A DNA stretch of 64,000 nt from Auricularia sp. M13. Its lineage: Eukaryota; Basidiomycota; Agaricomycetes; Auriculariales; Auriculariaceae. Below, one piece after another: positions 2,594 through 42,948 of the stretch; position 1 is the first letter of the stretch, and each line of letters opens with the position of its first letter. Location: assembly GCA_037042915.1 (NCBI GenBank), contig CM073193.1, positions 1,798,001 through 1,862,000 of the forward strand, read 5' to 3'. The translations under genes and the position numbers were made by a program. The notes under the pieces were generated by a model. That model was not told the DNA's origin and did not search any database. It saw nothing but the letters and a program-made list of their open reading frames with translations.

Positions 2594-4502
2594 GGCGGAT
2601 TGCCTGCAGATCTTGCAGAGTCATCAACATCGAGATTCACAGCTCCAGGAAATAACAACACACCGTGGTCAAAAGCGAGGGCGAAAGACACAGTGACAAG
2701 CGTAGAGGCGGGTACCATATTTTAAAGCGCACCAAGCCCGTAGATTGCGAGCTAGACCGTCGCTGGGCAAGCGGTCGTGAGCGCGCGATCGTTAGGCCCG
2801 TCCTGCGTCGTGCAATCGGTTTGCTCGCAGCCAGCATGTATGCTACCGGTCCTGGAGTTCAGCCAGAGCAAGCACCTAAGACATTTGCCATGTACATACC
2901 TTGCAATGGCAAAGGACGTTTCCACAGGATGGCGATCGGCCCGGCAGGCACTGGCAATAGGACGCCATGCATTCTGAAGATGGCCAGGGACGCGCGGCGC
3001 GGCCATGCGATCACCACGGCCGGTGTGCATGGCCACGACCTGGTGTACGTGCCTGGAAGGAGCGCCAAGCCCGGCAATGCCCCGCCAGTGATGGCCATCC
3101 GAAACGGTTTTCCCCGATGACCTTCTGTCATTTCCTCTACCCACTGTGGCGTTGTGCAGCTACGATTCGCGCGAATTGGACCGGCCGCATGCTGCATAAC
3201 TCCCTCTTCTCGCAATCAAACTCTTTGAGCAACCTGGCTTCTCGTATTTTGGCATCATGTTCAACGGCGGCCTGCTCGCTGGCTCGTTCTGTGTCTAGGG
3301 CGCGGCTTTCTCAACCCAACGATTTTTCGTGCTTCGGGGCCTTTGCTGTTGCTCTTTCTGGACCAGGGCTGGACGCTGACGTTTCGCTTACAAACTACGG
3401 TATTGACGGGTGGCTGTACGACATTCGCCGCTTATTTAATGCATCTACCCATCATTCAGAACGGCCGGCTGCGCCAGCAAACACCTCGCTTGGCTTGCAT
3501 ATTGCAATCTACAGGACAACATCCAGGTCGACGTGTATTTGGGTTCTTTTCTCTTTTACCTTGATCGCTACAGCTGTACCGGGCTCTGACGCAAGGTTCA
3601 TGGTCCCTCATGCTGCAAGATGAACAGCAGTGGGCCAGTATACTCATGATAAGGAGTAACACGGCTGATTTGAACGACGTTGTTTGTAACCTCGTCGGCG
3701 GTGCTCTTGTGGTTCAGCACTCAGTGCTTGGTGGCCAATGTTCTATATCGAACTGTGCAGGTACATCAAATCAATGCTGTTTAATCAAATTCCTTTGTAC
3801 CACACCGACAGGTGGATGTGGCTAGCAGCACTGTCGACAGAAGTGAGCAACTCGGACTTTATGCACTTTATGCACTCTCATTGCAACAGAAATAGTTGTG
3901 CAATACCCTCTAGAATAGCACCTACTACACACGAGTTTGCGAGCGTTTCGTGCACAAAAGAGCACACTGGTGCCGCGATGATAGCGGGCTGGAGTGGACG
4001 GCGACTGTGAGAGCAATCCGTTTTCCCTCTATCGCGCCAAAGGTCGAGCATATTGGGAGACCTGGAGAGACAGAAGCATCAACGTAGTACGATTTAATGC
4101 ACCATGTCACACATAGGTTGGGCTCATATGCCGCAGTGTTTATGCGCGATCCTGGAGAGAGTTCATGTGAACAGGACATTTATATCCTTTCCATCTGATA
4201 GCCTTAATACAGGATGAGGATGGAGGATTCTTGGATTGAAAGGCAAATTAGAAGGTGAACGTCCAGCCGAATGATGCACAAGTTAATGACCATTGGTATA
4301 GTATCAGGGGGCTGAAGAAGTCCGTAGCACACAGAACGACGGCCTGAAACTCAGGCACTTCAATATTGGCAATTAGAGCTCATGTTGTGGAGGTAGCGAT
4401 TTGTGAAGCGACGAGGGGCAGGCCGGAAGCAAGCGGAGTTCGAACTGCATCTCCGTTGGTCGCAAATAAGGGGTGGGAGTGACCTTTCAAGCAAGGTGAC
4501 TA
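2594..4502. other. gene-poor stretch right of the Plavaka transposase
   Basis: Short open frames only, none with recognisable motifs or a plausible splice pattern. The first 150 bases presumably hold the transposase promoter and the right end of that transposon, but no terminal repeat could be identified by eye. Confidence 0.5.
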
Positions 4503-4585
4503 CAGCGCTTCTCGGGTTTCTTGGCGGGGCCCACTTTTTGTTGATACACGTCGGCCCCGCCAAGCCGAGGCCACTTTGCACCGGC
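4503..4585 (+). repeat. left terminal inverted repeat
   Basis: Pairs with 6049-6131 in inverted orientation. The first 24 bases are identical in both copies. Confidence 0.8.
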
Positions 4586-6048
4586 TCACATCCCGATGCA
4601 TGGAAACGCACCCAAATCGGGTCACCTTTACACGTCGTCTGTATCCAGAGGACTCAAGGGGCCTGGAAAGCATGTATTTCAACTAAGACAACTAAGTTTG
4701 ACAGTTTCCTGAACGTTGCGGCTGTCACTGACGAGCTGCCCATGTCCGGTAAGAGATGTTTTTATGGATGGGAATACGCGTCCAAAAGGCAGAATTCTAC
4801 ATACAGTTGTTCATCAAAAGCTCATAAGGCATGCGTTGGACAGGATCCAACACAGTCTCGCATCTCTTCAGCTCTAAAGCTGAAGATGCTACTATTTTTG
4901 GCGTGATCACACGGAGAAGCACGCTGTATCACGCCGTTAGCGAGCTCGGGCGAGCCTTGCCGCCCAGCGAAAACAAGCACTAGTGGATACGAGCTCGACA
5001 GAGCGATCGTGAGCAAGCCAACGGCGCTCGGCCGCGCCCGGAAAAGCTCACCCAAGCTTCAAAATCGAGAGGTTTTTGGAGCGATGCAGAGCTTCGGCGG
5101 GCACCGCCGAGCGTGCTCTGGAGAGGCTCTGTTGCGCTCACACACCTCCACACCGAATGTTTCCTGCTTGTCCAATAGGATTTCTTTCTTGAAGGCTTTG
5201 CTTGCATGCTTCGGGCTTTCCCATGCTGTACTATAGAATGATTTATTGGGTCTGAAGCAAATTGTATTCCAAGGACTATGTACACAGGTAGCTACTACAA
5301 CCAGGCGAATACCAAGGAAACTGCTCGCGGGTGGCGGGCGCATCACATCGCGCCAGCGCACGCCTGTCCTCCCACCGACCGTCGATGCCAAGAGGCTGTA
5401 GTGAAGCGTGAGAAAACACATGCCGCAGGAGAAGGGAAGCGACATACAGGAAACTCCTATGCGATGTCGTCTGACATCGTGCATTGTCACGGCCTGTGCG
5501 CTGTGGAATGCCGTTAGATCGACGGTTGACAACAAACTGAAGAGGAAGACATACCCAGATATAGCAGTGTGCTGCCGAGGTGGCGAGCTCGACGGCAGGG
5601 ACGGGCAGCAAGCAAAGAAACTAGATGAGAACGATGCAAGTCAGCTGCGGGCTGGACCGGGCAGGAGTGGGCGTACGTGGAGTTGTTGATGGTCGAGGTC
5701 GAGAGAGGTGGGTAGTAGAGTGACACTGACAGGACTTGTCGTTTTCGAGACGGCACGGGTGGAAGAGAGGCGACTTGGCTGAGTGCGAAGTAGACGTCCA
5801 CCTTGAGAGTGTTGGGAAAACTCCCGAAGGCGGGCAAAAAATGGCGCAAAGTCGTAAGATACGAGATTTTTGTGACAAAGGATTCCGTCGAGGGGCGCGA
5901 GCTTCAGAGCGATCACGAGCCTGACTGAGCCAGCTGCAAAAGGCTGCAAATGGCTTGTTCTGGCTCTGCCGGGCTCAAACTTCCGTTTGATCGCGTCAAA
6001 CGCGCTCGCAGCCGCTCACATTTGCTAGTGCGCGTTTTCACTGGGCTT

Positions 6049-6131
6049 GCCGGTGCAAAGTGGCCTCTGCTTGGCGGGGCTGACGTGTATATCAAAAAAA
6101 GTGGCCTCGCCAAGAAACCCGAGAAGCGCTG
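6049..6131 (-). repeat. right terminal inverted repeat
   Basis: Inverted copy of 4503-4585, ending GAAGCGCTG and followed by TA. Confidence 0.8.
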
Positions 6132-9100
6132 TAATGCTTCGGGCCACATACCCAGCATCTTTATGTTCGCCCCACAATGTGCACCCTGGAATAGTTTGTC
6201 CTGGCCGTTGATTCGATCCGACTCCATGATTTCTCCCAGCGCCCAGTTTATCAATTGACACGCCAGCATCTCCTCGGACGAACACTGGTCGATCCTGAAT
6301 ACGCATGCCGCGCACGCTGTTCTCTATCGAGTCCTTGTTGCGGCTGTGCCACGGGTGGTAGTACAGCAGCCGGACATTTCGCACGCGCTGCAGGCGCGGG
6401 CCCGGCCCCCATTGGCATCACAGTGGCCTCCGCCGGCGCGGTGTGCACGCGCAGCGGCTACACCACGCACAGCTCGAGTCGCTCATCGAGTGTATCTACT
6501 AGATGCGTCAGCCGCTGGACGGCGTATTGGATGCAGTACGCCAGCTGGACGCACAGGTGTAGGTCGCCCACAGGTGCGTCGCGTGCCCTATGACGCGAGC
6601 AGCTCGCAGGCGGTGTGCACTGTCACGTGCGTCGTGGAGGTCACGGCGTGCAGATATAGCAGCGCTGCAGCGTGCGGCCGGATGTGCAGCGTCTTTATCT
6701 CGCGCCCGAGACAACGTGCGCGCTGTTCCAGCCGCGTGAAGTCGAAGAGTGTGCTGAGCGATAATCTGCATGCCCTGCATCTCCCCTAGCTCGCAGCAAT
6801 ATCTGACAACATTTGTTGTTGTGAGCCATTAAGACTACGGTTCTTTAGAGCCTCCAGGCGTGGAACGTGCTGTTGACACGAATGGAACACAAGTTGAAAA
6901 TGCTTCGGACGTATTTTTAACCCATATCCAAGGCGTTTTCCGCTTTTTGGGATTTTCAACTCATTTTTCACAGTGGAAAACAGGTTGAGACGGACTGGTT
7001 GCGGGGTGTGTGATCAGAGTCTTGCACCCGTTTTACCGCCGCCTAGCAAGTCCACGGAATCTCCGCGTCGTGAAGCCATTGTCCTGCATGTGATGTCCTT
7101 TTTCATCAGGAAAACGTCACTCTGCGCATGACCGCGCTCGACGCACCAGAGCGGGCCGCGCCCAAGTTCTATGCCCCCCTGTTTGGAGCAGCCAGCCACC
7201 GCTCTGGTGCGGCCATTAGCGCGCCATGCCTTCGTATGCCTGCATTGTACCGCTTCATAATCCCAACTTTTGCTCCAGGTGGTCTGCAAATTGGGTTCAG
7301 CCCAGACGTTGTCGCAGCCACTGTCGCGGTCTCATGGTTCTAAACAGCTGCTTTGAGCCCGACGCGACATGGATTGAGAAACAGCGATATATTATGAATG
7401 AGGCGAAATGTATATTACATGGTGGCGGACATCGTGCGCCAGGGCACGATGTGTGAACATAATCAAATACTTACCGTGACAACACCGAGCGGCTAGGAGA
7501 ACCCGCAGGATTGCCATCGCGTGCCTCGCAGAGAGCTGCCGCAAGCCAAAGTAAGCGGTATGACGGAGGACATAGCCATGAAACCGAGACGTACCGACTG
7601 AGCGGACCTAAGAGCGTCGGGCAGGAATTCCGAGAAATCTAGAGCGTCGGGAGAGGACATGAGCATTGAGTACAGCCGACAGAGCAAAGTGAACGTACAA
7701 GATTTCCTTGAGGGATTTGCCAGAACTCGACGAGGCGCCTGAGAAGACGCTATGACGGCCTTGAATAACGGACGATCAAATATACGGGACGTACCGGCGA
7801 GCGCTGAGCAGGTGATCACGAACAATGCGACGGAACTGCGCGTGGACTGTCAGCGCCGTAGACCTGCAGGCTCGGGCAAGTACCAGGCATGCAGCTGAAG
7901 GGCGACAAGCTTCGAGGTCCTTGAGGTGGTGGTATGGCGAAGAAGACCTCTGTGTGTGCCTGAAGATGCAAGAGAGCGCGACTGCTGTGGAAAGAATGCG
8001 AGAACAAGATGGCGGACTGCTTCAGCGGCCGTCGATGCTGGAGGTGGGCGTCCGAGTGGAGGTACGTGGTCAAGAAGCGTTGAACTCCGACCCAACCATC
8101 GACCGGAGGAGGCCCAGAGTTTGACAGATTGAGCTAGTTCCTGTTCCTGACTGCCCATTCGGTGGGCAAAGTTCTGACCGAGGGACTTAGCCTCTCAGCA
8201 ACAGTCTTGATGAGATGGATACTCTACGGGATGCATTCTCATTCACTGTACGCCTGGATCCCTGCCCATAACACTGTCACTGCGGCACAAACGCCAAAAA
8301 CCTGATTATCTCGTGGCAAAATTGCTTCTGCACATGTTGCCATCTAGTAGCCGCTGTATGACTTTGTAAGAGCACTGTGGGGGCGCTGGTTAAAGGGAAG
8401 CCTGTTTGGAGAGAAGAGACCGGCATGTGCGGGATGTACACTCTCAAGCGCTTGATATCAACCAGTTGCAGCTCTGGCAGCACTTTAGCGATAGTTTTCA
8501 GCTTCCTATGCTACGGGATTGCCGTTGGCGAGCTTTCTGACGCACCTGGAGGCCTGAAAGGTGAGCAGAGTTGCACGGAAGCCACCAACCCGAATGAGAC
8601 GGGCTGTGGCAGCAGGCATCAGCGTACGAGCCACTAGAGTTGACTTATGCCGCAATAGGGAAAAACGCGTTTTCCTGATGTTGGAGACGTATCCTTCTGC
8701 CAGTGCCCCTATTTCTCTAATGACTTCGTAGAACATGCTCCCCATTGACAACGTGAGAGGTGGGAAATGTGTCTAAGATGCGCGTTTCTTGACTTTCACT
8801 CTCATCGAATGATCAATCATCAGAGAACTTAGAACCACACTCAGGACTCATATATGGGAGCTGACCTGGATCCAGGATCAATGTAGCTGTCTGGCGATGG
8901 TTTCAGATGAATATGCGGACTTTGCCGACGTGACTTCGTGGGAACTCAGGGTAGGTCTCCCGAGGACGGCACAGAAGGCTAGGCAAATTTCAGCCTCATA
9001 TACCGGTATCTAACGCAGCAAAGCTTTCCGGGATCACGGGAATGTTGACAGGGGATCCCCGCTGCATTGTCAGCCTCACGGAAACAATCTCGACGGCACT

Positions 9101-18030: not shown

Positions 18031-19286
18031 TCACATGTTCAGTCCGCCCGCGAAGAACTGGGGCAGTCGCTCCCAAATGCCCGCTCGGCGATCGCGCAGT
18101 GTAGCACCTGCATTACGCTGACATGTCCCACACACGCCGTATAGAGTCTGCAACCCGGATTCTGCATCGTGTAACACGGCGAGCGGGTCTCGGCTGCGCA
18201 TGCCCGCGCTCAGCTGCCGCGCGAATGGTCCCCACCAGGTATTGAGAACGCTGCGGCAGCAGCACGGTGCGCTGCCGCAGATCCCAACGTCGCGTTCTTG
18301 CTGAGAAATGAAGCTGGAGAGCGCGGTTCGACCGCGCAGCAAGGTACGCAAGACAGAGGGTGAGAGCGTGCTGGTGAAGCGCACAACGGACTGGATGGAG
18401 AGGAGCGTGGATTCTGTTGCGGGGCTGCCGTTCTTTGAGGGAGAGGGAGGCGGGGACGCGGAGAGAAGCGCGCGGTCTGTGAAGACGCGGTTGAGATGAT
18501 AGAAGGCACTCGGGAGAACGCTGGGAATGTTGTGCTCGTGTGCGATCTCGATCATTTGCACTGAATTGCTTTTGTCAGTGCCTTCCCGAACCAGCATTCT
18601 GAATTCTGACACACGTACCAGCGTTAGGACCCTCGATTCCCGTTTCTATCAAGCCCTCTGCAATCTGCTCGCGCACGGCGTCTTCGCGCTCGTCCCACGC
18701 GTCGAGCATCGTAGGCCACTCGCGCTCCAGGAAGTCCACGACATCCGATCGAAGCGCGTCGACATCCCATTTGCTTGCCACTCTAAGAAGGGATGCCGCA
18801 CGGTCTGAAGCATCAGCGTCGATCCAGAATGCGAGGTTGAAGTGTCCAAGGTATCTGCGCGCGTCTGTGTAAATAGCTGCTGCACGAGCAAGCACATGGA
18901 CGGACGAACCCAATCACATAGATCCATTGCAGAAAGTGGTACAGATCCTCCGCGTCGTCGCAGAAGCGCACGACGGGCAGGTCGACACCGTCCAGATGTT
19001 CGTTTGGCTTAGCGGCCGCCGCCGTAAAGAGTGCCTTCCAACGAGCGCTCTGATGCACCAGCACTTTCTTATGTACCTTGAAAGCGCGCAGAGGCCGAGA
19101 AGACGATCGTTCTTCCGCCGTAACGGTCGCTGGCGCCACGAGCACGACGTCGCCGTCGTCGAACCATAGCTCGTCATCGCGCTCGACGTCATCTGGGCCT
19201 AGGCATTCGTCCTCGAAGACGGTTGCCAGTGTCAGTGTGCTGGAGAACGACGACGACGAGCGGCGCGGCCCATGCGAACGCGGCAT
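18031..19286 (-). CDS. BTB/POZ domain protein
   Basis: The ATG at 19286 opens an exon to about 18918, ending in a BTB fold: 'FKVHKKVLVHQSARWKALF', then 'FCDDAEDLYHFLQWIY'. A second exon ending at 18619 carries 'LLRVASKWDVDALRSDV', typical of agaricomycete BTB proteins. After a clear intron at 18561-18618 (GTACGT..CAG) the last exon runs to the stop at 18031. BTB domains mediate dimerisation or link substrates to Cul3 ubiquitin ligase; the partner here is unknown. The join between exons 1 and 2 (about 18918 to 18880) cannot be placed with GT-AG signals in frame, so that junction is unresolved. The gene converges on the tRNase Z-like gene 351 bp away. Confidence 0.75.
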
Positions 19287-20292
19287 TTGGGTGGCGCAAA
19301 GGAAAGGATAGACTATAGGTCGCGTTGTTGATGTCCCGCCGCGTTCATATAGAGAGCGTGCGACCACCGTGGCTGCGTCCGGGCCGGCAAACACGAGGCA
19401 GGGAAGCGCAGAAGGCCACGGAGAGTGAAGTGGTCCTTGTTTTTGTTCGTCTCGCGCGCGCTTCAGAAGGAGACGTCGCTTCGAGTATCCAGGTTGACCG
19501 TGGCGGCGTAAAGGCCGAAGGGACGAAGACAACATTGGATACCAAAGCTGTCATGGTCGATGACACCGCTGGGCCATGGTATTGCAATTATGTTGTGTAT
19601 ACGCCTGTCATGGTGGCAGCCTACAACAGTTATCAGTGAGGAGCCTGAACATTAGGCTGCTGACCTGAGCATTCTCACCTTTTTTTTGTCTGAATGCAGG
19701 CCCAGAAAATGCTGCCTGAGCTTTGCGCATTGCTTCCATCTATCGACCACGGGCCAGTGGGAAACGTACAGTGTCGAGCTCAGAATATAAGAGTGTCAGG
19801 GGAAAGGAGCGGAGATTCAACAGAAACAATGATCCTCCCAATGACATGCGCCGTTCTATGTAGGACCTTGCGCCTGAATACTACTACTACTACACGCCTT
19901 CGCGGAAACGCAACAGGCAGTCCGCTCATTTGAAGAACCGTGAGTTGCGCATGTTTTGCACTATCTCTAGTCGACTTATGGCGGGATCATTCTGTAGTCG
20001 TATCCAGCTCCGAGGCGCCATCTGAATCGCGGTCTGATTCCATTTCTCGCACAAATGACTGCTATGAAAGCGTAGGGGTAGACAACGTTCATTTCGACTT
20101 CAACCCAAGCTCTCCACCAATGAACCAAGGGTCGATCCTCACCAATAACATCGAAATCGTCATGTGCCATTGGCAGGAGCGTGGTCTGTATGAGGTTGGC
20201 TATCCAGCTACCTACCTAGCTCTAAGAACATGTCTACGTACCTCCAGGGAAGATAGCGAGCACCTCCAGCAGCGCAAGGGACATGCACAAAT
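19287..20292. other. intergenic stretch upstream of the BTB gene
   Basis: Contains the BTB promoter and unconvincing frames only. A frame at 19940-20410 (+) overlaps the antisense of the F-box tail and has no recognisable features. Confidence 0.4.
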
Positions 20293-20779
20293 TCACTTTT
20301 GCTCGGTGACAATCACCTCGCCTGAGGTCCACATGTCGGCCCCCCCTCGTGTCATGGCATCCCAGGCCGCGTCGTCCCCTGATGCCTCCACCTCTTCGAT
20401 AGCGAATTGAGTAGAGGGACGACCGAAGAGCACGAGAGCGTCCCGCAAATCGGAGATGGCGGCTTGTTTAGACTTCGAGTTGCCCGTGCGGGTGTAACGG
20501 CAGTAGACGCGTTTCATAGACTTCTTCTTCATGATCTCTGGGGTTAATATGATGGACAGGGCGTCGTTAAGCGTTGTCGCCGTAAAGCCGAGATGAGTCA
20601 ACGAAGGTAGACAATTGACGAGTGGTGGCAAGCATGCGCGCGTATCCGGAGAAACGGGCACGAATAGATGTGTAACGCTATTCACGCGGCTATAGATGAG
20701 CTGGTGAAGGGCGCCGTCCCTGGGCCAAAGTTCCAGGATCAGCTCTTTTATGTGGAGCTGCAGCGGGTGATCCTCCAAG
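20293..20779 (-). pseudogene. F-box-like gene, 3' half (separated by a LINE insertion)
   Basis: This is the C-terminal half of a host gene whose first half lies 10.5 kb away at 31271-31673 on the same strand. It reads 'LEDHPLQLHIKELILELW', 'VTHLFVPVSP', 'LPSLTHLGF' and ends 'DAMTRGGADMWTSGE'. Leucine-rich segments and a final 'AARGG.D.W' type block are usual in agaricomycete F-box-like proteins of about 300 residues. With one copy of the 16-bp target duplication counted, the two halves total 906 nt, exactly 302 codons, and the frame is continuous across the insertion point. Neither half alone should make a working protein. A proposed intact role would be substrate choice in an SCF ubiquitin ligase. 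Confidence 0.75.
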
Positions 20780-20795
20780 AGAAAACGCAGTCCAA
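20780..20795 (+). repeat. left copy of 16-bp target site duplication
   Basis: AGAAAACGCAGTCCAA, identical to 31255-31270. It sits at the point where the F-box frame is interrupted. Confidence 0.85.
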
Positions 20796-21596
20796 GGGCC
20801 ACCTTGCCTCCGGACCACCACGTCCTTTCCGAAATGATCTTGTTCCTGCCCTCTGCGGCAAGCTAGAGATGCAAAATCTGAACACACGCGCGATGCAAGC
20901 ACTGGGAGTCGTTCTAGACGATGCACAAATGCTCAAGCCGCCAAGTAAATATGTCGGCGACGCCGCCTCCGAGCACGACACAATCTGAACCATGTGTAAA
21001 GACGCAGAGAGATTCCCCGCCTCAGCCAGGCCGTTAAATGAGCCCATAGCATCCCAGACCGTGCTCACGGGCATCCGAGACATGGAAGTCGCTGTGGGCG
21101 TCGCCCACAGCCAGGGGGACATACGTGTCCGCAGCAAATGAGTCAGCGCTAGCACGTTTGATCCGTGACACCCGGACAAATGACGCACGCATAGTCAAAT
21201 TCCTCAACATTCCATCTCTCGCACACGACTGCCCGATCGGTGCGCCGGAAATGCAAGACACGTTTCTGGAGCTCGATGCAAATCTTCCGCACGCCTTATA
21301 TCCGGCGCCCGCTCTGCGTCCGAGAATTGTACTCAATGTCGCCCGTGTGCGTCAGTAAAAACGACTATGCTTCAACACGCGCATGAACAGCGGAAATTAA
21401 CTGTGATAACTGCCCGACGACCGCCACAATAAATCGAAGCCTGCTTGTCCCCCGGTGCGCACACAAACATTGCCTCTGAAATTACCACAAACATTCCACG
21501 CCTCGCCATACGAGAACGCAAGATCCCGGTCGTACACACCGTCGCTATAACCCACAGTATAAAATGCGACGCTAAAAAAAATGTGAACGACAGAAA
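20796..21596 (+). other. 5'-most part of the inserted DNA, no clear gene
   Basis: Begins GGGCCACCTTGCC right after the target duplication. Short frames on both strands, none recognised. A TATAAAA at 21559-21565 precedes the membrane-protein frame. Confidence 0.4.
21559..21565 (+). promoter_or_regulatory. TATA box candidate for the membrane-protein gene
   Basis: TATAAAA, 32 bp before the ATG at 21597, which would leave a very short leader. Judged from sequence and position only. Confidence 0.35.
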
Positions 21597-22228
21597 ATGC
21601 AAGACCCGAACGACGCTAACCCACCTCTCCCTCCGGTGGTCATCGCGCTGCTTATCCTCATCGCGATATGCCTGGGCGCAGCAGGGATAGTATCCCAGAG
21701 GCACCCCCACGGGCGCAACCCTTTCGAGGACCTGGAGCTCGCACAAGCTGCTGGTACGCAGGCGGCTACTCCAGCCCAGGATCCAGGGTCTGCGCAGCCT
21801 GGACCTGCCCCTGGAATACGTACCCCTCCCACGCCACTGGCTTCGGCGGCCGAACTGCGCGCCGACCCTCCGCCGATAGGCTCTAACTCCTCGCGTATCA
21901 CTGAGGAAGAAGGGACACGCCCAGTGCAGATCATCATCCGGGATCACCTGGCCCCCGGCCAGCAACCGCCGACGTTCGAACCAGGTTCGCCTCACACCAA
22001 ACCATGCTAAGACATTCTAATCGTCCAATAGGGGACAACCGCATTTTCATTGCCCTCCCCGATAAGCCGCCGACGCCTCGTGGATACTGCGAACCATCTC
22101 GCGTAGTGACTCAACCTGTCCCCTTCGGGCCCAAACACCCTAATGCTGTAATGTTCGACAGCACGGCCAGCAGCGCCTCCAAGAAGGGTCGAATCTCCAT
22201 CAAAGGCCTCTTCCCTCCCTATAAATAA
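21597..22228 (+). CDS. small single-pass membrane protein encoded upstream of LINE ORF1
   Basis: Two exons, 21597-21984 and 22032-22228, with a 47-nt intron (GTTCGC..ATAG), encode 194 residues. A short polar N-terminus is followed by one strong hydrophobic segment, 'PVVIALLILIAICLGAAGIV', at residues 13-32. A Pro/Ala-rich stretch and a tail with 'GDNRIFIALPDKPPTP' and 'FGPKHPNAVMFD' follow. Lack of a cleavable signal before the segment suggests an N-terminal anchor. I do not recognise the family. It lies inside the DNA bounded by the LINE target duplication, so it is either an accessory frame of the element or a host gene carried along. The stop codon overlaps a TATAAATA box at 22220-22227. 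Confidence 0.55.
22220..22227 (+). promoter_or_regulatory. TATA box candidate upstream of LINE ORF1
   Basis: TATAAATA followed about 20-50 bp later by CT-rich sequence (from 22240), a common fungal promoter and start-site pattern. It overlaps the last codons of the membrane-protein frame and could drive transcription toward ORF1. Confidence 0.4.
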
Positions 22229-23120
22229 GAGCTTCGAACGCGCTCCCCACCACTCCCTCACCTCTTTGAACTTCCCCTTGCACTGCCTTCGCTGTTGCTC
22301 TCGTCCTCGAGCCTAAAACATGTGCTTTACCCATAACTCATTAATTCAGCACGCGTGCAAACATCGCTTTATAAAGAACAAGTTCGAAGTATTATAATTT
22401 TTACTGAGGAGGACCAGTTGCTGATCAACACCTAGTGCAGATGCTTCAACCCCGCTTGCCGCACCAGCGTGAACCACGACAAAGCACACAACTGCACCTG
22501 GCGCGGCTGCATAGTGCTGAAAACGGCGACGAAGGACGTAGTGAACGAGATGTCCGACGAGGTCTGCGCATTGTGCGAGCACGGGCTCCCTGTTGTGAAG
22601 TATCACCCGAGGTCGCTGATCTAATGTAATGCGTAATCGACATGATGTTTGCAGAATTTGTCAGCAACGACAAAAACTAGCGGTCCCTGCTCGCGGCCGC
22701 CGTAGTATCATCAATAATGACACGGAAATGATGGCAACTTTGTAAGATGACTGTCCCAATGCTTGGACGTGCCCAAGCCGGACAGCTATCACCCCACATC
22801 AACTGCGGCCGAGACTCCCTGAGCAAAGAACGGGCCATTGCAAAGCCGTCCCTGGACCAATTTTTTCCATATTAAATCGTGCTAGCCCTCTGCAAGTTGA
22901 TGCCCAACTCAGTAGCTATTCGGGCCAGACGGGCACGGTATGCACAGACGCGCTCTTTCTCGGCCGCATCAAAATGGAGGAACAAAGCACTTCTCGCAGT
23001 GCCGAATTCGACTTAAATAATCTTCCAAAAATTGTCTGCACGTAAAGATAAGCTCTTTTCTGAGGTTTATAAGGCTTCGAGAAATGGTTGGGACGTACCA
23101 ATTCCCCACGGCGAGCGAAA
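22229..23120 (+). other. leader region upstream of LINE ORF1
   Basis: No credible coding frame; AT-richer than its neighbours. Possibly 5' UTR of ORF1 transcripts starting near the TATA box at 22220. Confidence 0.4.
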
Positions 23121-25071
23121 ATGGAATCGCAAAGTGAGCAACAGGCGGGATATCGGCTCCTTCCGAAGCTGATGCTCGTCAGACTCGTTCCAAGCGCTCA
23201 ACGTCGACGTACCTGCTCCGGACTCGAGCGTCGTGTCCGGTGCTGGCGTAGGCACTGCCGACCTGCTGCAATCTCCGCAGCGCGCTCAGCACGGCGCCCT
23301 TGCCGGCGTCGAAATCGACAATGCGCTCGGCCTCGCTGGCACGCCCACGCCTGCAGACAAGAATGCCGCCAAGAGGCCCAGAGGCTCGGGAGGCAACGAG
23401 AGCGGAGAAGACGACTACGCAGCGAGACAGGAAGCTCGCAGGACGGACCCGACGAATCCCTTCCGGGTCGGCGACCAGCTCAACCCGTTCGCGACGAAAT
23501 ATAGGGTAAGCTAAAGCGCCTTCCCAGCCGAGAAATAGGTCTAACGTTATCAGAATATGTGCGAAAATCGCCACCGTGAGCAGGTTACGGCGAACGGCCA
23601 CGCGGCCGCTGCCATTCAATTCGCCCTCGACCACGGCTTCCATCCTGACCGCGTTCCGTTCGACGCGCAGCCGGACGAAGACATGGAAGAAGACGAGGAC
23701 CTCGGGGAGGCAGGCAGCCCGACAGCCGAGGCCATTCGCCTCAAGCTTCAGCGCCTGGCGCGCCCCGCGACGGCATCGCGCCAGGCCTCACCCGGCGTCT
23801 ACCACCCCGCAGCGGCGCCCACGTTTGCTCATCCCCCCGGTCATGCTGCGCAAGTCATCGACGTCGACGCCTTTGACGTCGACGCTGCCGACGTGACCGA
23901 AGCCGCAGCGCTGCCCCCGCCGCTCGGTACCGCGCGCGTCCGCGTCCCGCGCAAACCCACCAAGAGCGAGTCCGCCGACGACGGGCTCACGGCCGAGGAG
24001 CGCAAGGACATGCGCAAGATCCACGAGGTCTTCGGGGACAGCACCATCCTGCTCAAGGTCGCCCCATCGACCTACGATGTGGACGGTCGCGGGCCGCAGT
24101 GGGCTCTCGCGAACGTTTCGCGCCAGCAAGCCGCAGACTGGGGCCTCTACGACGGGCCGCATTTTCTAATCGTCGTCCCAGGCCCGCCGATGGGCGACGA
24201 AATGCGCGCTGCAACTGCAGCCGCTCTCCAGTCGATCATCGAGCGTGCCGCTCCCGCTAAAGCTGCGATAATGCAACCACAGGTAGCTCCGGCCAACGCA
24301 CAGGACCCCTCTATGCCGCTGCTCAACATCTTCTTCGCCCACTCGCTCGACGAGGACGTCAGGGACGGCTTCCGCGTGTCCACGGGCTACTCAGCTGGCC
24401 GCGACAACCAGATCATGTTCACGTTCGGGCTCGGCAACCGCGCGTCGCCCTTCATGTACACTATGTACGGCATCACGCTCAAGGACCCCGTCAAGGACGC
24501 CGACGAGGTCGCCGGACTCGTATCGTCGACGCTCGCGCGCGCCGAGGAGGTGCAGACCGCTATCATCAAGATCAAACCGTCGCTAGCGCCCGCGCTCAAA
24601 CAGCTGTCCGACGGCGAGCTCGTGACATACATCCTCTCCTCGGTACGCGTGTCTGGCATGCGCATGGTGTCTCCGACCAAGCGCGGCGTGTGGATCACGC
24701 AGTGGAACGTCTACCTCGATCACGCCCACATGTTCCAGAGCCAGCACCGCGCCCTTCGTGCCACGATTGCCGCCGTCCCCATCGTCACGTCATTTTACGG
24801 AACGGGGCGGATGATCAAGAAGAACTGGTATTGCGCGACCTGTATGTCTATCTCCCATCCGACGGGCCTCTGCCCATTCACCGCGCTGCCCGGGTGGGCA
24901 AACTCGTCGTCAGTTGCGACGGACGAGCCGAACGACATCGCAACCCGGATCGGTGAGGCCGCGGAAGGTAGCATGAGCAGCAGGGGAAGCTCACGAGGAG
25001 GAAGAGGAGGCTTCCGAGGAGGTCGGGGTACTCACGGCGGCCGCAGCGGCCGCGGTGGTGGCAAGTCATGA
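23121..25071 (+). CDS. LINE ORF1 (gag-like RNA-binding protein) with apparent introns
   Basis: The large exon 23554-25071 encodes a conserved-looking body ending in a CCHC knuckle, 'CATCMSISHPTGLC' (C-x2-C-x4-H-x4-C, near residue 538), then an Arg/Gly tail rich in RGG. Such proteins coat the element RNA. The coding frame continues upstream only if introns are removed: 23183-23505 ('FRVGDQLNPFATKYR' at its end) joins through a 48-nt GTAAGC..ATCAG intron, and the ATG exon 23121-23133 joins through a 49-nt GTGAGC..GTCAG intron. The total is 617 residues, with all phases matching. The second intron is well supported; the 13-nt first exon is tentative. Without introns, translation could start at 23557. 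Confidence 0.7.
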
Positions 25072-25432
25072 ACACGTACGCTAGCAGCTGTCCTTCGCAC
25101 CAATGTGCCGCAAAAGTATATAATTGAAAATGCTCTGCATTCCAATGGATCTCGGAGTAAGGGCAAGGTGACCTTGTGCAAATTGAACCGGCAGCTTGTG
25201 TGAGGCCCAACGAAATCTACGCACAATGTGTTAGTGCCGTGTCCAAGCCCAAATTTACCAACTATTGAAAGATAGGATGGGAAAGCTGAGACACGTTATT
25301 CTCAAATAAACGGCGATCTATTTAGATCTGAGCGTGCCGTGCGGAGACGCTGAAGCCATCAGGAACGGGAGTATCTGTCCGGACGGATATTCACAAGTAC
25401 TGTCATGCATAGCTCACCGTGCCATCCGGGAT

Positions 25433-28400
25433 ATGATGGCTGAGCGGCGGAGGCGCACTGGCCTGCGTCCGCGAGATTTCTCAGTGCAACCAATATCATC
25501 AACAACATTTTCCAGACCGGAGACGATGAACAGGCTTGGTTTCTCGGACTACAACTCCGGAGCCGTGCAAGTCCCGTCCGCTGCTTGCATGAGCGGTGAT
25601 GGAGTGGTAGACCTCGGCGGTGGACAAAGCCCAACACCGGATAACTCTCACATCAACGAGGACGTCGGATCGGAGACTGACCAGCCTGCTGGCCATCTCC
25701 TCGATCTCCGTACTGTGTCACCGAGTGGCGAGAGTCTGAACGGGCAAAATGGCGGTAACTCTCCGCTAGGTGGCAGTGATCGTGGTCTCCCACGGACTGC
25801 AGAAGAACAGAACGACCTTGCTGGGCGAGGTTCAAATCCTCAAGTGCAAGAAGATCAAGAAGTGCATTCTGAATATCGAGTGCGCGACGAAGACATTGAA
25901 GCTGCATCTTCACGCGAGTCGACACCGAGGCCGGAACGCCGTGGGGATCGTATACGCGTCTTTCCGAGGAGAGGGCATAATAGTAATACACCTTTTCTCA
26001 GACTGCACATGTCAAAGGCTGGGTCAGGACTTAAAACAAAGGCTCACCTGCGAATGGAATCCCAGAACATGAGGGGAAGGAGCCATGACGGTCGTGAAAT
26101 GAGTAAATGGTGGGAACTGGCGAAAGAGATGCGTGAGAGGAAGGTGGGAATTCTCGCTGTACAAGAAACCCACCTTTCAGTGGAAATGATCCAGGAAGTC
26201 AACCGCGACCATCATGATATCGAACTGTTCTGCTCACCGGACTTGGAGAATGACACCGGACGCGGAGGAGTCGGGATTGTACTAAATAAGAAGCTGGTTC
26301 GAACGCAGGACGCAAAGTCCTGGGAGATAATCCCAGGTAGAGCGATTGTAGTGAGCTTTGATTGGCATAGACAGCAGCGACTCACCGTCTTGGCTGTGTA
26401 TGCACCAAATGATCACGCGGAAAACAAAGAGTTCTGGACGGAAGTGAGAGCGATAATACAGCGAAGGGCGGACGTACCGAAGCCGCACTGCATGTTAGGA
26501 GACTTTAACATGGTAGAATCGGCGAGCGACCGATTCCCAGCGCATTTACTCAGTGCTGACATGTCCGCCGAGTTCCAAGAGCTCATATCATGGCTCAAAA
26601 TGGTAGACGGATGGCGAGAAACTTACCCGCGGAGTTTTGCGCCCACATGGAAGGATGCGTCAACCGTACGCCATGCTCGCCTCGACAGAATATACGTCAT
26701 CGAGCAAATATTCATGACCAGTCGCGACTGGAAAAATGAAAGTATAAGAAGCTGGTGCTCGGGTTCAGACCATATACCAGTCTATGTTGATCTAATAAAT
26801 CCAGCGATGCCATTTGTAGGGCAAGGTCGCTGGTCAATGAATCTAGGTCATCTGCGTATCGGTAACTTAGTCAAAGAGATCATTGAGGACGGTAAAAGTC
26901 TTGAAAAAAAATTGGAAGACTTAGCTGCGAATGCGAGGATGCCGGAGCATAACATCCAACATCTATGGCATGAATGGAAGATCAAAATAGGTGAGAAAGC
27001 ACGTCTTCACGCGCGCATGAAAGGACAGAAAAATGAGCGCATGTTAAAAGCTCTGGAGAAAGAGAGACAATCCATGCTTCAGAAGGCGACGTACGGGGAA
27101 ATATCCAGAGAAGACTTGCCGTTCGAGATTCTGAGCATTGATGATCGTATAACGGAGATCACTAAGCGCCAGAAGAAGCGAAGGAAAGAGCAAGCGAGCG
27201 CGAAAAGACGTATATACCATGAGACAAACTGTGCTGAGTGGTTCAAACTCGGACGAGAGGAGAAGAGAGCGGAGATTATACCTTGCCTTCGAGACACCAG
27301 ACCTGTGGGCACGCGCGCGAGAAATGTAGATGAACGCGTAGAAGAGGCCGAAAACGAAGGAGCGGGTGAGTACGTCTCGTGCACAGATGATATGGTCGAT
27401 GTGATGCGTTCTCACCATGAGATCTTACAGTCCCAAGACATTCATCCTGACACGGAAATCCGCGAAGAAGACACAAAGAAGGTGCTTGACTACGTCAAGC
27501 AGCGAGGAAATGAGCCTCAGAACGGACTAGACGAGCTGCTTACCGAAGAGATAGTTCGGTCAACACTGCGGCAAGCCCCGAACGGTAAAGCCGCTGGACT
27601 CGACGGCTTGATTCATGAGCTATGGAAGGAGCTCGACGCCGAGTTTCAACTGTCAGGAGGCAGTGGTTTTGACGTAATTCGAGTACTCACAATACTATTC
27701 CGTGACATTCAAGAGCATGGACTTATCGAGAACTCGAACTTTGCGGAAGGTTGGCTCTGCCCTCTATATAAGAAAGGGGACAGGGCGAATATTGCGAACT
27801 ATCGGCCTATTACATTGCTCAACACAGATTACAAGCTATTTACAAAATCGCTTACCGACCAGCTAGGGTCCATTGCAACGTCCATGATCGACAGAGCGCA
27901 GAGCGGTTTTGTGAAGGGTCGCCAGATCACTGACACGACAAAATTAGTAAGGCTAATGGTGAGCTACGGTGAGAAAACAGGACAGAACGGTGCAATTTAC
28001 TCACTGGACCAGGAAAAAGCATACGACAAGATTATGCATGACTACCTATTCCGAGCGCTGCGACAGTTCGGACTACCTGAACTCTTCGTCAAAACCGTGG
28101 AGAACTTGTACAGATACGCGCAGACGAGAGCCATGATGAATGGAGTCTTGAGCTCTCCCTTCCGTGTCACAAGAGGAGTGCGACAAGGCGACCCGCTGAG
28201 TTGCCTGCTATTCGACTTTGCCATAGAACCATTATCTATAATGCTGAGAGAATCAGGTGACCTAGAAGGGTTTCAAATCCCTGGGATGACAAAACCGCTC
28301 ATTGCGACGCTGTTCGCGGACGACACGACAGTGTATATGTCAGAGAAGGACAACTTCGCAAATTTGGACAAGATCTTACGTACCTGGTGCATAGCGGCAG

Positions 28401-31045
28401 GCGCTAAGTTCAACGTAGCGAAGACGGAATGCATTCCGATCGGATCTCCAGAGTATCGCGCTAGGTTCAGAACCGATCGCCGAGCGCTTCCTGAACATAT
28501 GACATTGCCAGAAAATGTGCGTATAGCAGACGACGGCGAAACCATTAGAATTCTCGGGGCGTGGGCTGGAAACGATGCGAACGACGAGGACACCTGGGAA
28601 AAAGTATTCAAAAAGACGTCAGACAAATTAATGAGATGGGACGAAAACCATCCGACAATAGATGGCAGACGTCACCTCATACAAGCGTACCTGGGTGGTG
28701 GAACCCAATATCTCACTGCCGCGCAGGGCATGCCGCCGGATGTAATGAAAAGATTCATAAAGCTCGAGCTCGACTTCTTTTGGGAGTACAAGAAACACAC
28801 CGTAAATGCTGAGACTTTGTACATGCCGACGAGCATGGGAGGCGCAAACATCCTTGATCTAGAGGCGAGAAATGAGGCAATATATCTAGTATGGACGCGT
28901 GAATACATGAAACCAACGGATGAGAGACCAACATGGGCCTTCGTCGCGGACGAGATCTTTAGAAACACACTTACCCTTGACTGGCAAGACAAGATTGATG
29001 GGGATACCCACATCCTTTCGAATTTCGTCACACAATCCTGGGACCCTATGATAAGGAAAAGACGCACAGAGCGTACGACGGGTCGCGCCAACGTGCAAAC
29101 AGGACTCCCGCTTGAACTAGAAATGCTATATAAGACCGCGAAGAAGCACGATGTTAGAATAGAAGCAACATATGTGAGCGAGCAAGCCAGACGTCTCTCA
29201 CCTGCGTGGTATAATGCAGAGCATAGCTCATCGTTTCGTCAGCGACACTCCGGCGCGACGGTCAAATGTCTTCGCCGGAACCATCGTGTGATCGTAATCC
29301 AAGATGCGATCGATTGCTTCGAGAATGACGATGAGGAGGGACGTCACGGTCCAGCACACGTTCGTCATGCAAGCTGCGAGTGCTTACACTGTGAATATCA
29401 GAAAATGCTCGGATGTGAGGTTCCGTACCGTTGCCAAGATGTGGCATTTGATCTCGTCCAAAGCCAACGCGAAAAATGGCGTCCAGACTGGGGCAATGTA
29501 GATCGCTCATGCTATCTGCGAGAGGAGGAACATGAGCAAAATGCTCAAGCTGAACTGTTTTCGAAGCCGGTCACCTTCGACGCCACTGTGCCAGAGTTTA
29601 AACATCCAGAACAACACGCCCGCGTGTTCACGAGGGAGCTGAGCGTTATCTCAGACAGCCCGCCACCTGAGGACGGACATCCACAGGGTACGCACGAGCA
29701 TGCCGCCCCACCATCGGACGAGATCGTCATAACATGCTGTGGATCGGTCAGAGCAGCGCGAAGTAAACGCGCCAGGGCGACTTACGCTTTGCACAGCGAT
29801 GAGCTCGACCTAAATTATGCCAGGAAAGTCGGCGCTGGCGACCCTCAGACTCGTGAGCGCGCGGCAACATTGGCAGTCCTGGATGCCGCGCGGAGCGCAC
29901 CAAAGGATCGTCCACTGCTTATCAAAGTAAATGCAACGAGGACCGTCACTCGTCTGACTACTGCTAAGAATAAATTGGAACTTACCGGGTGGGTGATGTG
30001 CGGAGAAGACGCCGACGTATACCGTACAACGGCAGCCATGTTAAGAAGTCGACCGGCGCGCACTAGAATCCAGTACGTATGCGAAGAAGATAACGATCCA
30101 GGGTACATTCAAGCATTAGCTAGTGCTGTAGCCGCACTGGAGGGTGAGGACGTACCAAGAGCCCCTTTCCTCACAGCGCCAGCAAGTTTCGACACGCCGG
30201 GTGTCCCTCTTGCAAGCGTCACGCAGAAGCTGGCAACTAGAATCATTAGGAATTCGAAATCAATCAGAGTTGAATCACGAACCAGAACTCAGACGAATTT
30301 GGAGCGTTCCAGGAACGATATGGCGGCGCTGTTGAAATATCGGCTGCCAGATGCTAGGATCTGGAAGGCGACTCAACATAAAGATTTCAGTAAGGAAGCA
30401 CGCACCTTCTTCTGGCGAGCAATGCACGAAGGTCACAGGTGTGGCCAGTTTCTGGCAAATTGGGGAGGTGAATGGATCGAAAAATCGAAATGCAAAGCAT
30501 GCGTCGGCGGGAAACTAGAATCTTTAGACCACATACTTTTATCGTGCACAGATCCTGTATCGGCACAGATATGGCATCTGGCAAGATCGACGTGGAAAGA
30601 AACGAAGAGGCCGTGGCCTGCTCTGACGATGGGCAACATTCTTGGATGTGGCGCGGCGCGGTTTGTCGATAAGAATACACGAGGCGAAGATCGGGAAGCG
30701 ATCGGCACCTCGCGGCTGTATAGAATCATCTTATCAGAATCTGCAAGACTGATTTGGACGCTCCGGTGCAAACGCGTCATAGAACACGAGAATGAACCAG
30801 ATTGGCAGCATCCAGCGGCCTTCGTAGAAGCGGAGTGGTTCAGAATCTTGAACGACCGTCTCACATCGGATAGACTGCTTACAAATAGTCACATTTATGG
30901 CAGGAGGGCTTTAAAGAAGCATCTTGTACTCACAACATGGTCATGCTTAATAGATCCCATGTCGGCTCCCGAGAACTGGATTAACAGCCCCGGGGTTTTA
31001 GTGGGTAGAAAGAGTCCCACACTGCCTCAAAGGAGGCGTGCATAA
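25433..31045 (+). CDS. LINE ORF2: endonuclease-reverse transcriptase polyprotein
   Basis: An uninterrupted frame of 1,870 codons from the first in-frame ATG; 361 bp separate it from ORF1. Residues about 1-200 are low-complexity. An APE-type endonuclease follows (about 205-450) with 'QETHL', 'LGDFNMVES' and 'SDHIPV'. The reverse transcriptase spans about 710-1010 with 'GKAAGLDG', 'YRPITLLNTDYK', 'SGFVKGRQ', 'GVRQGDPLSCLLFDF' and the catalytic 'FADDTT'. Around residues 1425-1570 is a region resembling RNase H in layout, but the usual catalytic Asp and Glu are not evident ('VITCCGS' where TDGS is expected). A C-terminal zinc motif 'CKACVGGKLESLDHILLSC' lies near residue 1690. It nicks target DNA and copies the element RNA in place. 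It looks whole. Confidence 0.92.
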   Translation: MMAERRRRTGLRPRDFSVQPISSTTFSRPETMNRLGFSDYNSGAVQVPSAACMSGDGVVDLGGGQSPTPDNSHINEDVGSETDQPAGHLLDLRTVSPSGESLNGQNGGNSPLGGSDRGLPRTAEEQNDLAGRGSNPQVQEDQEVHSEYRVRDEDIEAASSRESTPRPERRGDRIRVFPRRGHNSNTPFLRLHMSKAGSGLKTKAHLRMESQNMRGRSHDGREMSKWWELAKEMRERKVGILAVQETHLSVEMIQEVNRDHHDIELFCSPDLENDTGRGGVGIVLNKKLVRTQDAKSWEIIPGRAIVVSFDWHRQQRLTVLAVYAPNDHAENKEFWTEVRAIIQRRADVPKPHCMLGDFNMVESASDRFPAHLLSADMSAEFQELISWLKMVDGWRETYPRSFAPTWKDASTVRHARLDRIYVIEQIFMTSRDWKNESIRSWCSGSDHIPVYVDLINPAMPFVGQGRWSMNLGHLRIGNLVKEIIEDGKSLEKKLEDLAANARMPEHNIQHLWHEWKIKIGEKARLHARMKGQKNERMLKALEKERQSMLQKATYGEISREDLPFEILSIDDRITEITKRQKKRRKEQASAKRRIYHETNCAEWFKLGREEKRAEIIPCLRDTRPVGTRARNVDERVEEAENEGAGEYVSCTDDMVDVMRSHHEILQSQDIHPDTEIREEDTKKVLDYVKQRGNEPQNGLDELLTEEIVRSTLRQAPNGKAAGLDGLIHELWKELDAEFQLSGGSGFDVIRVLTILFRDIQEHGLIENSNFAEGWLCPLYKKGDRANIANYRPITLLNTDYKLFTKSLTDQLGSIATSMIDRAQSGFVKGRQITDTTKLVRLMVSYGEKTGQNGAIYSLDQEKAYDKIMHDYLFRALRQFGLPELFVKTVENLYRYAQTRAMMNGVLSSPFRVTRGVRQGDPLSCLLFDFAIEPLSIMLRESGDLEGFQIPGMTKPLIATLFADDTTVYMSEKDNFANLDKILRTWCIAAGAKFNVAKTECIPIGSPEYRARFRTDRRALPEHMTLPENVRIADDGETIRILGAWAGNDANDEDTWEKVFKKTSDKLMRWDENHPTIDGRRHLIQAYLGGGTQYLTAAQGMPPDVMKRFIKLELDFFWEYKKHTVNAETLYMPTSMGGANILDLEARNEAIYLVWTREYMKPTDERPTWAFVADEIFRNTLTLDWQDKIDGDTHILSNFVTQSWDPMIRKRRTERTTGRANVQTGLPLELEMLYKTAKKHDVRIEATYVSEQARRLSPAWYNAEHSSSFRQRHSGATVKCLRRNHRVIVIQDAIDCFENDDEEGRHGPAHVRHASCECLHCEYQKMLGCEVPYRCQDVAFDLVQSQREKWRPDWGNVDRSCYLREEEHEQNAQAELFSKPVTFDATVPEFKHPEQHARVFTRELSVISDSPPPEDGHPQGTHEHAAPPSDEIVITCCGSVRAARSKRARATYALHSDELDLNYARKVGAGDPQTRERAATLAVLDAARSAPKDRPLLIKVNATRTVTRLTTAKNKLELTGWVMCGEDADVYRTTAAMLRSRPARTRIQYVCEEDNDPGYIQALASAVAALEGEDVPRAPFLTAPASFDTPGVPLASVTQKLATRIIRNSKSIRVESRTRTQTNLERSRNDMAALLKYRLPDARIWKATQHKDFSKEARTFFWRAMHEGHRCGQFLANWGGEWIEKSKCKACVGGKLESLDHILLSCTDPVSAQIWHLARSTWKETKRPWPALTMGNILGCGAARFVDKNTRGEDREAIGTSRLYRIILSESARLIWTLRCKRVIEHENEPDWQHPAAFVEAEWFRILNDRLTSDRLLTNSHIYGRRALKKHLVLTTWSCLIDPMSAPENWINSPGVLVGRKSPTLPQRRRA

Positions 31046-31229
31046 AGCATTTCCCCGGGCGTGCCCCCAAATGTAATTCTCGGTTCTTCTTAAAATCGCA
31101 TTCCACACGCGATCCTCGCCGGAGCCTTTCTTCACCTTCTCACAAGACTCTACTCGACCTCCCCCAGGGAGGTACTTGACTCAACTCGACACGCATTTCA
31201 TGCGACAGGTCGTGTTGCAGGGCACTAAC

Positions 31230-31255
31230 AAAAAAAAAAAAAAAAAAAAAAAAAA
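31230..31255 (+). repeat. poly(A) tail of the LINE
   Basis: About 26 consecutive A residues directly before the right target duplication. The last A is shared with the duplication. Confidence 0.9.
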
Positions 31256-31270
31256 GAAAACGCAGTCCAA
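31255..31270 (+). repeat. right copy of 16-bp target site duplication
   Basis: AGAAAACGCAGTCCAA, identical to 20780-20795. Confidence 0.85.
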
Positions 31271-31673
31271 TGAGCGCCTGCAGTCGAGGTTGGAATGCGA
31301 GGCAAATATTTCCGAAAGGTATCCGTATATAGCGTAACTTCGGCAGGCGAGGAACTACCGCATCGAACTCGTCGAAACGTGTCTTGCCCAGCTCAGGGTC
31401 AGGAAAACACGGCAAAGCCATCGAAAGCGAGCGAGTGCCTGCCGCGCATCCAGATCGGGCGGCCAGAAGAAATGAATCCATGTCGGCTGCTGTGTGCAAA
31501 GTGACGCGGTCGTACAAAGCGGGGAGAACCCAGCGCTGAACGATTGAGTTGACGCGGCAAAGACGGGCGCCGTCGGCCGGCCAATGCAAGGCGACAAGTT
31601 CCACAATGTCGCGCAGAAGGTCAAGAGGAAGAGAAGACAGCCCGAGCGTCGCTGCGGTCGTTTGTTCGGCCAT
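31271..31673 (-). pseudogene. F-box-like gene, 5' half (separated by a LINE insertion)
   Basis: Starts at the ATG at 31673 ('MAEQTTAATLG'). It has an F-box-like opening, 'LPLDLLRDIVELVALH', then 'LCRVNSIVQRWVLPALYDRV' and 'VVPRLPKLRYIRIPF'. The frame reaches 'ALIGLRF' and then runs into the poly(T) complement of the LINE tail, which would add a phenylalanine run and an unrelated end. The missing remainder is at 20293-20779. Intact, the protein would have 301 residues from a single exon. Confidence 0.8.

Positions 31674-42914: not shown

Positions 42915-42948
<34 letters not shown>
42915..42948 (+). repeat. T34 homopolymer
   Basis: Thirty-four consecutive T, 41 bp beyond the stop of the forkhead gene. 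It would be poly(A) on that gene's strand. No flanking duplication was found by eye. Confidence 0.9.

Follow-up and report, generated by a model that had tools for sequence, protein, structure and literature searches.

A LINE that splits an F-box-like gene in Auricularia sp. M13 carries extra upstream genes with predicted introns and belongs to a chimeric lineage

The DNA analysed here (the window) is a stretch of 64,000 nt from Auricularia sp. M13 (assembly GCA_037042915.1, contig CM073193.1, positions 1,798,001 to 1,862,000 of the forward strand), in which a long interspersed nuclear element (LINE) of 10,459 nt, E1, lies within a host gene. The insertion itself, described in an earlier note on this DNA, is correct but ordinary; it is E1 that is unusual. 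Ahead of its first long open reading frame (ORF1) it carries two accessory genes, these and ORF1 contain predicted introns, and its 5′ half and its ORF2 come from different LINE clades. As a whole, a target-primed insertion that split the gene, made by a member of a LINE group with accessory genes, predicted introns and a chimeric lineage, is an account in which we place high confidence.

The sequence AGAAAACGCAGTCCAA was matched exactly only at 20780–20795 and 31255–31270 in the window, and in none of 100 shuffles. The 16 bp identity stops at both edges and extends on neither side, and the right copy is directly 3′ of a run of 26 A (31230–31255), so that the perfect duplication after a poly(A) run reported previously is exact and unique in the window. 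The first A of the right copy could be part of the tail, which makes the duplication 15–16 bp long. The features of the insertion are:

20293–20795, minus strand, C-terminal half of the split gene, including the left duplication copy; stop codon at 20293–20295
20780–20795, plus strand, target-site duplication, left copy (exact 16 bp repeat)
20796–31254, plus strand, LINE element E1, 10,459 nt, with ends as in its sister E2, which has its own duplication
31230–31255, plus strand, A tail of 26 nt, the last A shared with the duplication
31255–31270, plus strand, target-site duplication, right copy (exact 16 bp repeat), the first A shared with the A tail
31255–31673, minus strand, N-terminal half of the split F-box-like gene, including the right duplication copy; start codon at 31671–31673

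This genome (52.1 Mb, 14 contigs) was searched for homologues and elements, and the counts of related copies from the DNA searches are lower bounds. The nearest full relative found was a sister element on contig C11 (E2, 10,396 nt as cut), with the same start sequence, an A tail, its own 16–17 bp duplication and an ORF2 that is 77% identical to that of E1. Since E2 shares the termini of E1 and has a duplication of its own, the ends of E1 are confirmed, and the LINE insertion proposed in the earlier note is borne out. A 13.9 kb LINE on C11 (E3) has a 12–14 nt duplication and an ORF2 36% like that of E1. Twelve LINEs were examined for their ends and ten showed duplications (E1–E7, M21, M28 and M34); M22 and M29 showed none in the stretch examined, and both were left out of full-length counts.

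E1 has the attributes of a LINE, with an endonuclease and a reverse transcriptase in one ORF2, an A tail and a target-site duplication. Two features outside the upstream genes are:

20796–20868, plus strand, conserved 5′ terminus with short predicted stem-loops, alike in E1, E2 and E3 (E4–E7 differ by eye)
25433–31045, plus strand, ORF2, 1,870 codons from the first ATG, with endonuclease, reverse transcriptase and a sub-threshold zinc-binding region

The unbroken 1,870-codon ORF2 noted previously lies within a frame open for 1,911 codons from stop to stop, and matches the Pfam families Exo_endo_phos (1.1e-9) and RVT_1 (7.4e-30). No GIY-YIG endonuclease was matched in E1, which has an endonuclease of the apurinic/apyrimidinic (APE) type instead and is not Penelope-like in this respect. 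Members of the Tad1 clade have an RNase H domain in ORF2; Pfam RNase H had no match in any of the six ORF2s scanned. The first 70 nt of E1, E2 and E3 are alike and two stem-loop pairs change on both sides, while the predicted 5′ fold of E1 and E2 alone was no better than that of shuffles. An Rfam search at the 5′ ends gave no match for E1 or E3, and for E2 a single one of 13.2 bits (gathering score 46.7). A different common 5′ end, with a long predicted hairpin, was seen in E4, E5 and E6.

In the region ahead of ORF1, E1 and E2 share two frames, one hydrophobic at its start (ORF0) and one rich in cysteine and histidine (the Cys gene). The features of this region and of ORF1 are:

21558–21563, plus strand, TATA-like site; distance to the start of ORF0 39 nt in E1, 36 nt in E2 and 38 nt in E3
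21597–21984, plus strand, ORF0 exon 1; the small protein has a single, strongly hydrophobic (predicted transmembrane) segment at its N terminus
21985–22031, plus strand, predicted ORF0 intron, 47 nt
22032–22228, plus strand, ORF0 exon 2, 55% identical to exon 2 of E3
22320–22388, plus strand, Cys gene exon 1, 69 nt, of the same length in E2 and E3
22389–22435, plus strand, predicted intron of the Cys gene, 47 nt
22436–22624, plus strand, Cys gene exon 2
23121–23133, plus strand, ORF1 exon 1, 13 nt
23134–23182, plus strand, predicted ORF1 intron 1, 49 nt, its position and phase shared with E2 and E3
23183–23505, plus strand, ORF1 exon 2, with a ratio of nonsynonymous to synonymous change (dN/dS) of 0.23 (wrong frames 1.77 and 1.19)
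23506–23553, plus strand, predicted ORF1 intron 2, 48 nt, containing in-frame stops
23554–25071, plus strand, ORF1 exon 3; a CCHC knuckle lies close to the C terminus

ORF0 and the Cys/His-rich protein are under purifying selection for E1 against E2. In that comparison, dN/dS was 0.22 and 0.19 for exons 1 and 2 of ORF0 and 0.18 for exon 2 of the Cys gene; read in the wrong frames, the values rose to 1.77 and 1.78 (ORF0 exon 1) and to 1.61 and 1.77 (Cys exon 2). The long frames gave 0.14 (ORF1) and 0.07 (ORF2). Searches with either protein found one further place, at 324.6–325.6 kb on C11, inside E3. Outside E1–E3, these searches gave just two weak hits for ORF0 (E 0.23 and 0.47) and no hit for the Cys/His-rich protein. 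When the sense strands of ten elements were scanned for hydropathy, only E1 (3.12), E2 (3.02) and E3 (2.67) exceeded 2, and the best value among the seven others was 1.88, in M21. M22 and M34 were searched with the ORF0 and Cys proteins only, with no match below E 0.1. The TATA-like site suggests that ORF0 may have its own promoter.

Other upstream frames were seen in related elements. E3 has a further 514-aa frame near its 5′ end (C11:322186–323727) with a C-x2-C-x4-H-x4-C motif and no Pfam match, perhaps a second ORF1-like gene. M29 (on C7) and M34 (on C11) share another frame upstream of ORF1, 72% alike in DNA and ending RIDDIL...PAPY...CLGGC, which is perhaps a different accessory gene in other LINEs.

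Reading frames, splice signals and homologous positions point to short spliceosomal introns within ORF0, the Cys gene and ORF1. The predicted GT-AG segments of the three genes are 45–60 nt long and lie in homologous places. ORF0 and the Cys gene each cross a frame change or stop, although the unspliced Cys frame of E2 is open too, and in all six cases (two genes in three copies) removal of a GT-AG segment of 45–48 nt yields a product alignment that is free of gaps at the junction. The frame offsets in E1, E2 and E3 are 2, 2 and 1 for ORF0, and 2, 0 and 0 for the Cys gene. In ORF1, a predicted intron follows the 13 nt exon in all three copies and a second is predicted in E1 and E2; the predicted spliced ORF1 of E1 encodes 617 aa without a stop. 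A consensus intron segment likewise joins the ORF1 frames of M21 and M28.

A 49 nt intron is also predicted at the ORF1 frame junction of M29, and was compared with 12 related places aligned on both sides (C3:3779787, aligned on a single side, was left out of the count). Eleven of the 12 lack it, nine being shorter by exactly 49 nt, one by 48 and one by 51. In a base-by-base alignment of M29 with M34, a 49 nt gap matches the predicted place to within two bases. The sole relative keeping the segment (C9:1144894–1145295) is 77% identical to M29 there, yet the two ORF2s are 99% identical.

Several observations weigh against these gene and intron predictions. Alternative GT-AG choices also restore the frame in five of the six ORF0 and Cys cases, the ORF0 donors of E1 (GTTCGC) and E2 (GTCAGC) are weak, and the predicted ORF0 intron is more alike between E1 and E2 than are the exons (41 of 47 positions identical, 87%). 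The second ORF1 intron was not found in E3. Counts of intron-like motifs in the 5′ regions show no excess over shuffled sequence and are exceeded by those on the antisense strand of ORF2; since the counts are not enriched, the case for introns is built on the position of the motifs, and the counts are not used as support. Neither ORF0 nor the Cys protein has a Pfam family, the Cys match in E3 is weak (E 0.0025), and TATAA[AG] occurs at four sites in the first 4,500 nt of E1.

The E1/E2 lineage is a chimera, its 5′ half coming from one LINE clade and its ORF2 and 3′ end from another. Two stretches mark the change:

25303–25507, plus strand, ORF1/ORF2 junction, 70–75% alike in nine further genome places (also M22, M28 and M29)
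25507–26024, plus strand, stretch with the chimera breakpoint, upstream like the main clade and downstream like E4–E6

The ORF2 of E1 is 67–73% identical to those of E4, E5 and E6 (the E6 match being half of ORF2, with one stop), and the DNA match to these elements runs from element position 5151–5229 through the 3′ end. Upstream of that position there was no DNA match to E4–E6, nor any tblastn match with ORF1. The 5′ end of E1 aligns with that of E3 and looks unlike those of E4–E7 by eye. Profile comparison of the E1/E2 ORF1 gave E 1e-16 against E3, M21 and M28, 1e-8 against E4–E7 and 3e-6 against E4–E6. As profile matches were obtained throughout, all of the ORF1s are distantly related, but the closest relatives of E1 differ between its two halves. 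In a tree of ORF2 (25 rows from this genome), E3 falls between the E1 clade (6 rows) and the 18 other rows, a placement that is unsure since E3 is on a long branch.

Half-swapping between LINEs recurs, and there are recent cases. Five copies (L029, L030, L031, L032 and L034) are 84–100%, mostly 94–99%, identical per 250 nt window over the stretch that begins shortly before ORF2 and runs to the 3′ end. Upstream of ORF2 their identity is mostly 35–62% in forced alignment, with L031 and L034 reaching 70–71%; L029 and L032 share about 350 nt more. The ORF1 matches near these five are 64–77% alike to the ORF1 of M29. The full element of L034 is M34, with one matching duplication around its 14.1 kb. 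M34 is 97.7% identical to M29 over 5,752 nt of the 3′ part, and 66–82% identical in pieces upstream, the repeat-rich stretch between ORF1 and ORF2 being set aside. In both M29 and M34 that stretch is long and made of degenerate repeats.

Target-primed reverse transcription is the established mechanism of LINE insertion. By this route a full-length APE-type LINE would have inserted, antisense, into an apparently single-exon F-box-like gene, making the 15–16 bp duplication and cutting the gene near codons 134–140, which is the structure seen in the window. The LINE group encodes two proteins ahead of ORF1, of which ORF0 is a small membrane protein and the other is rich in cysteine and histidine. 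Since the predicted introns are retained in an element copied from RNA, the RNA copied back would have to be unspliced, and the proteins would be made from spliced messages. In the lineage of E1 and E2, the 5′ half of one clade was joined, around the ORF1/ORF2 junction, to an ORF2 and 3′ end derived from another clade, probably by template switching during reverse transcription. On balance, though by no means firmly, we favour a fungal LINE group that uses two kinds of RNA in the manner of a complex retrovirus, an unspliced template and spliced messages for ORF1 and two accessory proteins (one membrane-bound), and that recombines its 5′ gene sets with ORF2 units.

E1 might instead be an unremarkable full-length LINE whose long 5′ region is untranslated, with upstream frames that arose by chance and GT-AG segments that are no introns. 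The unenriched intron motifs, the want of a known family for the upstream proteins and the seven of ten scanned elements with no comparable sense-strand transmembrane frame in the stretch examined (best 1.88, against 2.67–3.12) would all fit, but three exons (exon 1 of ORF0 and exon 2 of both the Cys gene and ORF1) show selection in a single frame, E3 repeats the gene order and the spliced alignment with an ORF2 just 36% alike, and a predicted intron is absent to the base in one relative and by length in others, which makes this explanation improbable. Nor is it at all probable that programmed ribosomal frameshifting or readthrough, with no splicing, accounts for the frame changes. The 87% identity of E1 and E2 at the ORF0 frame change (41/47) could be read in that way, but the shift required varies among copies for both small genes, and the in-frame stops of E1 ORF1 fall at a GTAAGC-CTAAC-CAG segment that has none in E2. 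A conserved programmed frameshift was rejected, because the offset needed differs among E1, E2 and E3.

It would be a remote coincidence for the upstream genes to be host genes lying beside the element by chance. They do resemble small host genes with introns and possible promoters, but they are inside the target duplications of three separate insertions, and the searches beyond E1–E3 gave nothing for the Cys protein and only the two weak hits already mentioned (E 0.23 and 0.47) for ORF0. A more serious candidate, if still a doubtful one, is that resident LINEs gave rise to the mixed-half copies through DNA recombination or gene conversion with one another, and not through template switching. 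In its favour, several LINE families in the genome have alike ORF1/ORF2 junctions. Against it, a single matching duplication encloses all 14.1 kb of the recent chimera M34, as one insertion predicts, although a chimera made earlier and copied later would look the same.

The host gene was a single gene before the insertion. When the flanks are joined with the duplication counted once (20293–20795 plus 31271–31673, minus strand), they give 906 nt including the stop and one frame of 301 aa, so the 906 nt frame put forward in the earlier note is indeed continuous. A search of the genome with the joined protein found six places besides the split gene itself. Two are uninterrupted homologues, L006 (321 aa, aligning with query 5–299, E 3e-17) and L007 (297 aa, aligning with query 3–293, E 1.5e-13), and either half alone scored higher against each of them than all 500 shuffles; the other four (L008–L011) are weaker and match parts only. 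Because L006 and L007 span both halves, a single gene was split, the opposite of the outcome in which homologues would assign the halves to different genes. The naming of this gene as F-box fared less well. The joined protein had no match in a Pfam scan, and three of five homologues scanned gave F-box or F-box-like matches, all of them sub-threshold, so that the identity is weak and F-box-like only below the Pfam cut-offs. Near the split gene is a minus-strand frame (18813–19550) with a weak BTB match (E 0.12).

The earlier suggestion of a recent event is supported in part. There are no nonsense changes in 8,157 nt (the main exon of ORF1, ORF2 and the split gene), which limits neutral change to about 0.9% or less (95%), while the perfect duplication alone bounds neutral change since insertion only near 17%. 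The intact frames thus favour recency. Against it, the searches of the genome (with counts that are lower bounds) found no near-identical source copy of E1, the nearest being 77% identical in ORF2. The source copy may have been lost, may be in a different haplotype or strain or may have been missed, or the assumption of neutrality may fail.

The window holds other repeats. At 4501–6133 is a nested pair, in which the outer element has 85 nt inverted ends and a shorter copy of about 550 bp at C9:3225960–3226508 (98–99%), and the insert within it is 1,083 bp long and 99% identical to C11:2065348–2066423. A run of 34 T at 42915–42948 may mark the tail of a retrocopy on the minus strand; a search for a duplication there was negative.

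Elements copied from RNA normally lose introns, and to our knowledge LINEs are generally not thought to need unspliced RNA as a template. A LINE lineage that keeps introns and carries accessory genes would, if real, need such a template. Copies with and without the same predicted intron are present in this one genome and can be used for direct tests, and the differing 5′ halves on near-identical ORF2 units provide a natural record of LINE recombination. Searches of the open-access literature, at the level of titles and abstract openings, gave no LINE described with introns or with extra genes of this kind.

Known systems share some of these properties. The Tad, Deceiver and L1 groups of APE-type LINEs are reported from Laccaria bicolor in the relevant section of PMC3411680. 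E1 resembles those non-LTR (long terminal repeat) elements in the CCHC knuckle of ORF1, the endonuclease and reverse transcriptase of ORF2, the A tail and the target duplication, and its group differs from those described there in the extra upstream genes, the predicted introns and the length of 10–14 kb. The Penelope-like elements of bdelloid rotifers are reported to have introns, and intron-bearing host genes to have been copied to new places as well; the abstract of PMC3846280 contrasts these elements with all other retrotransposon types. They are like the E1 group in being retroelements with introns (here predicted), but have a GIY-YIG endonuclease in place of the APE type. If the two-RNA model holds, introns would be compatible with LINE copying, the very point on which that part of PMC3846280 sets Penelope-like elements apart. 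Captured extra ORFs are described for bdelloid rotifer retroelements in PMC5408684, as ORF3s in LTR elements (in part common to Penelope-like elements as well), along with LINEs that have a membrane-linked esterase at the place of ORF1. Accessory genes, some with transmembrane segments, are common to those elements and the E1 group, whereas their extra ORFs stand as ORF3s or at the LINE ORF1 place, and the main text of that paper does not use the word intron. Mosaic L1 families of the mouse, as presented in the pertinent part of PMC3600994, have exchanged parts between families, with some breakpoints towards the 5′ end of ORF2. Exchange of parts is likewise seen in the E1 lineage, but here it joins clades whose ORF1 DNA does not align, and the 5′ half brings extra genes with it.

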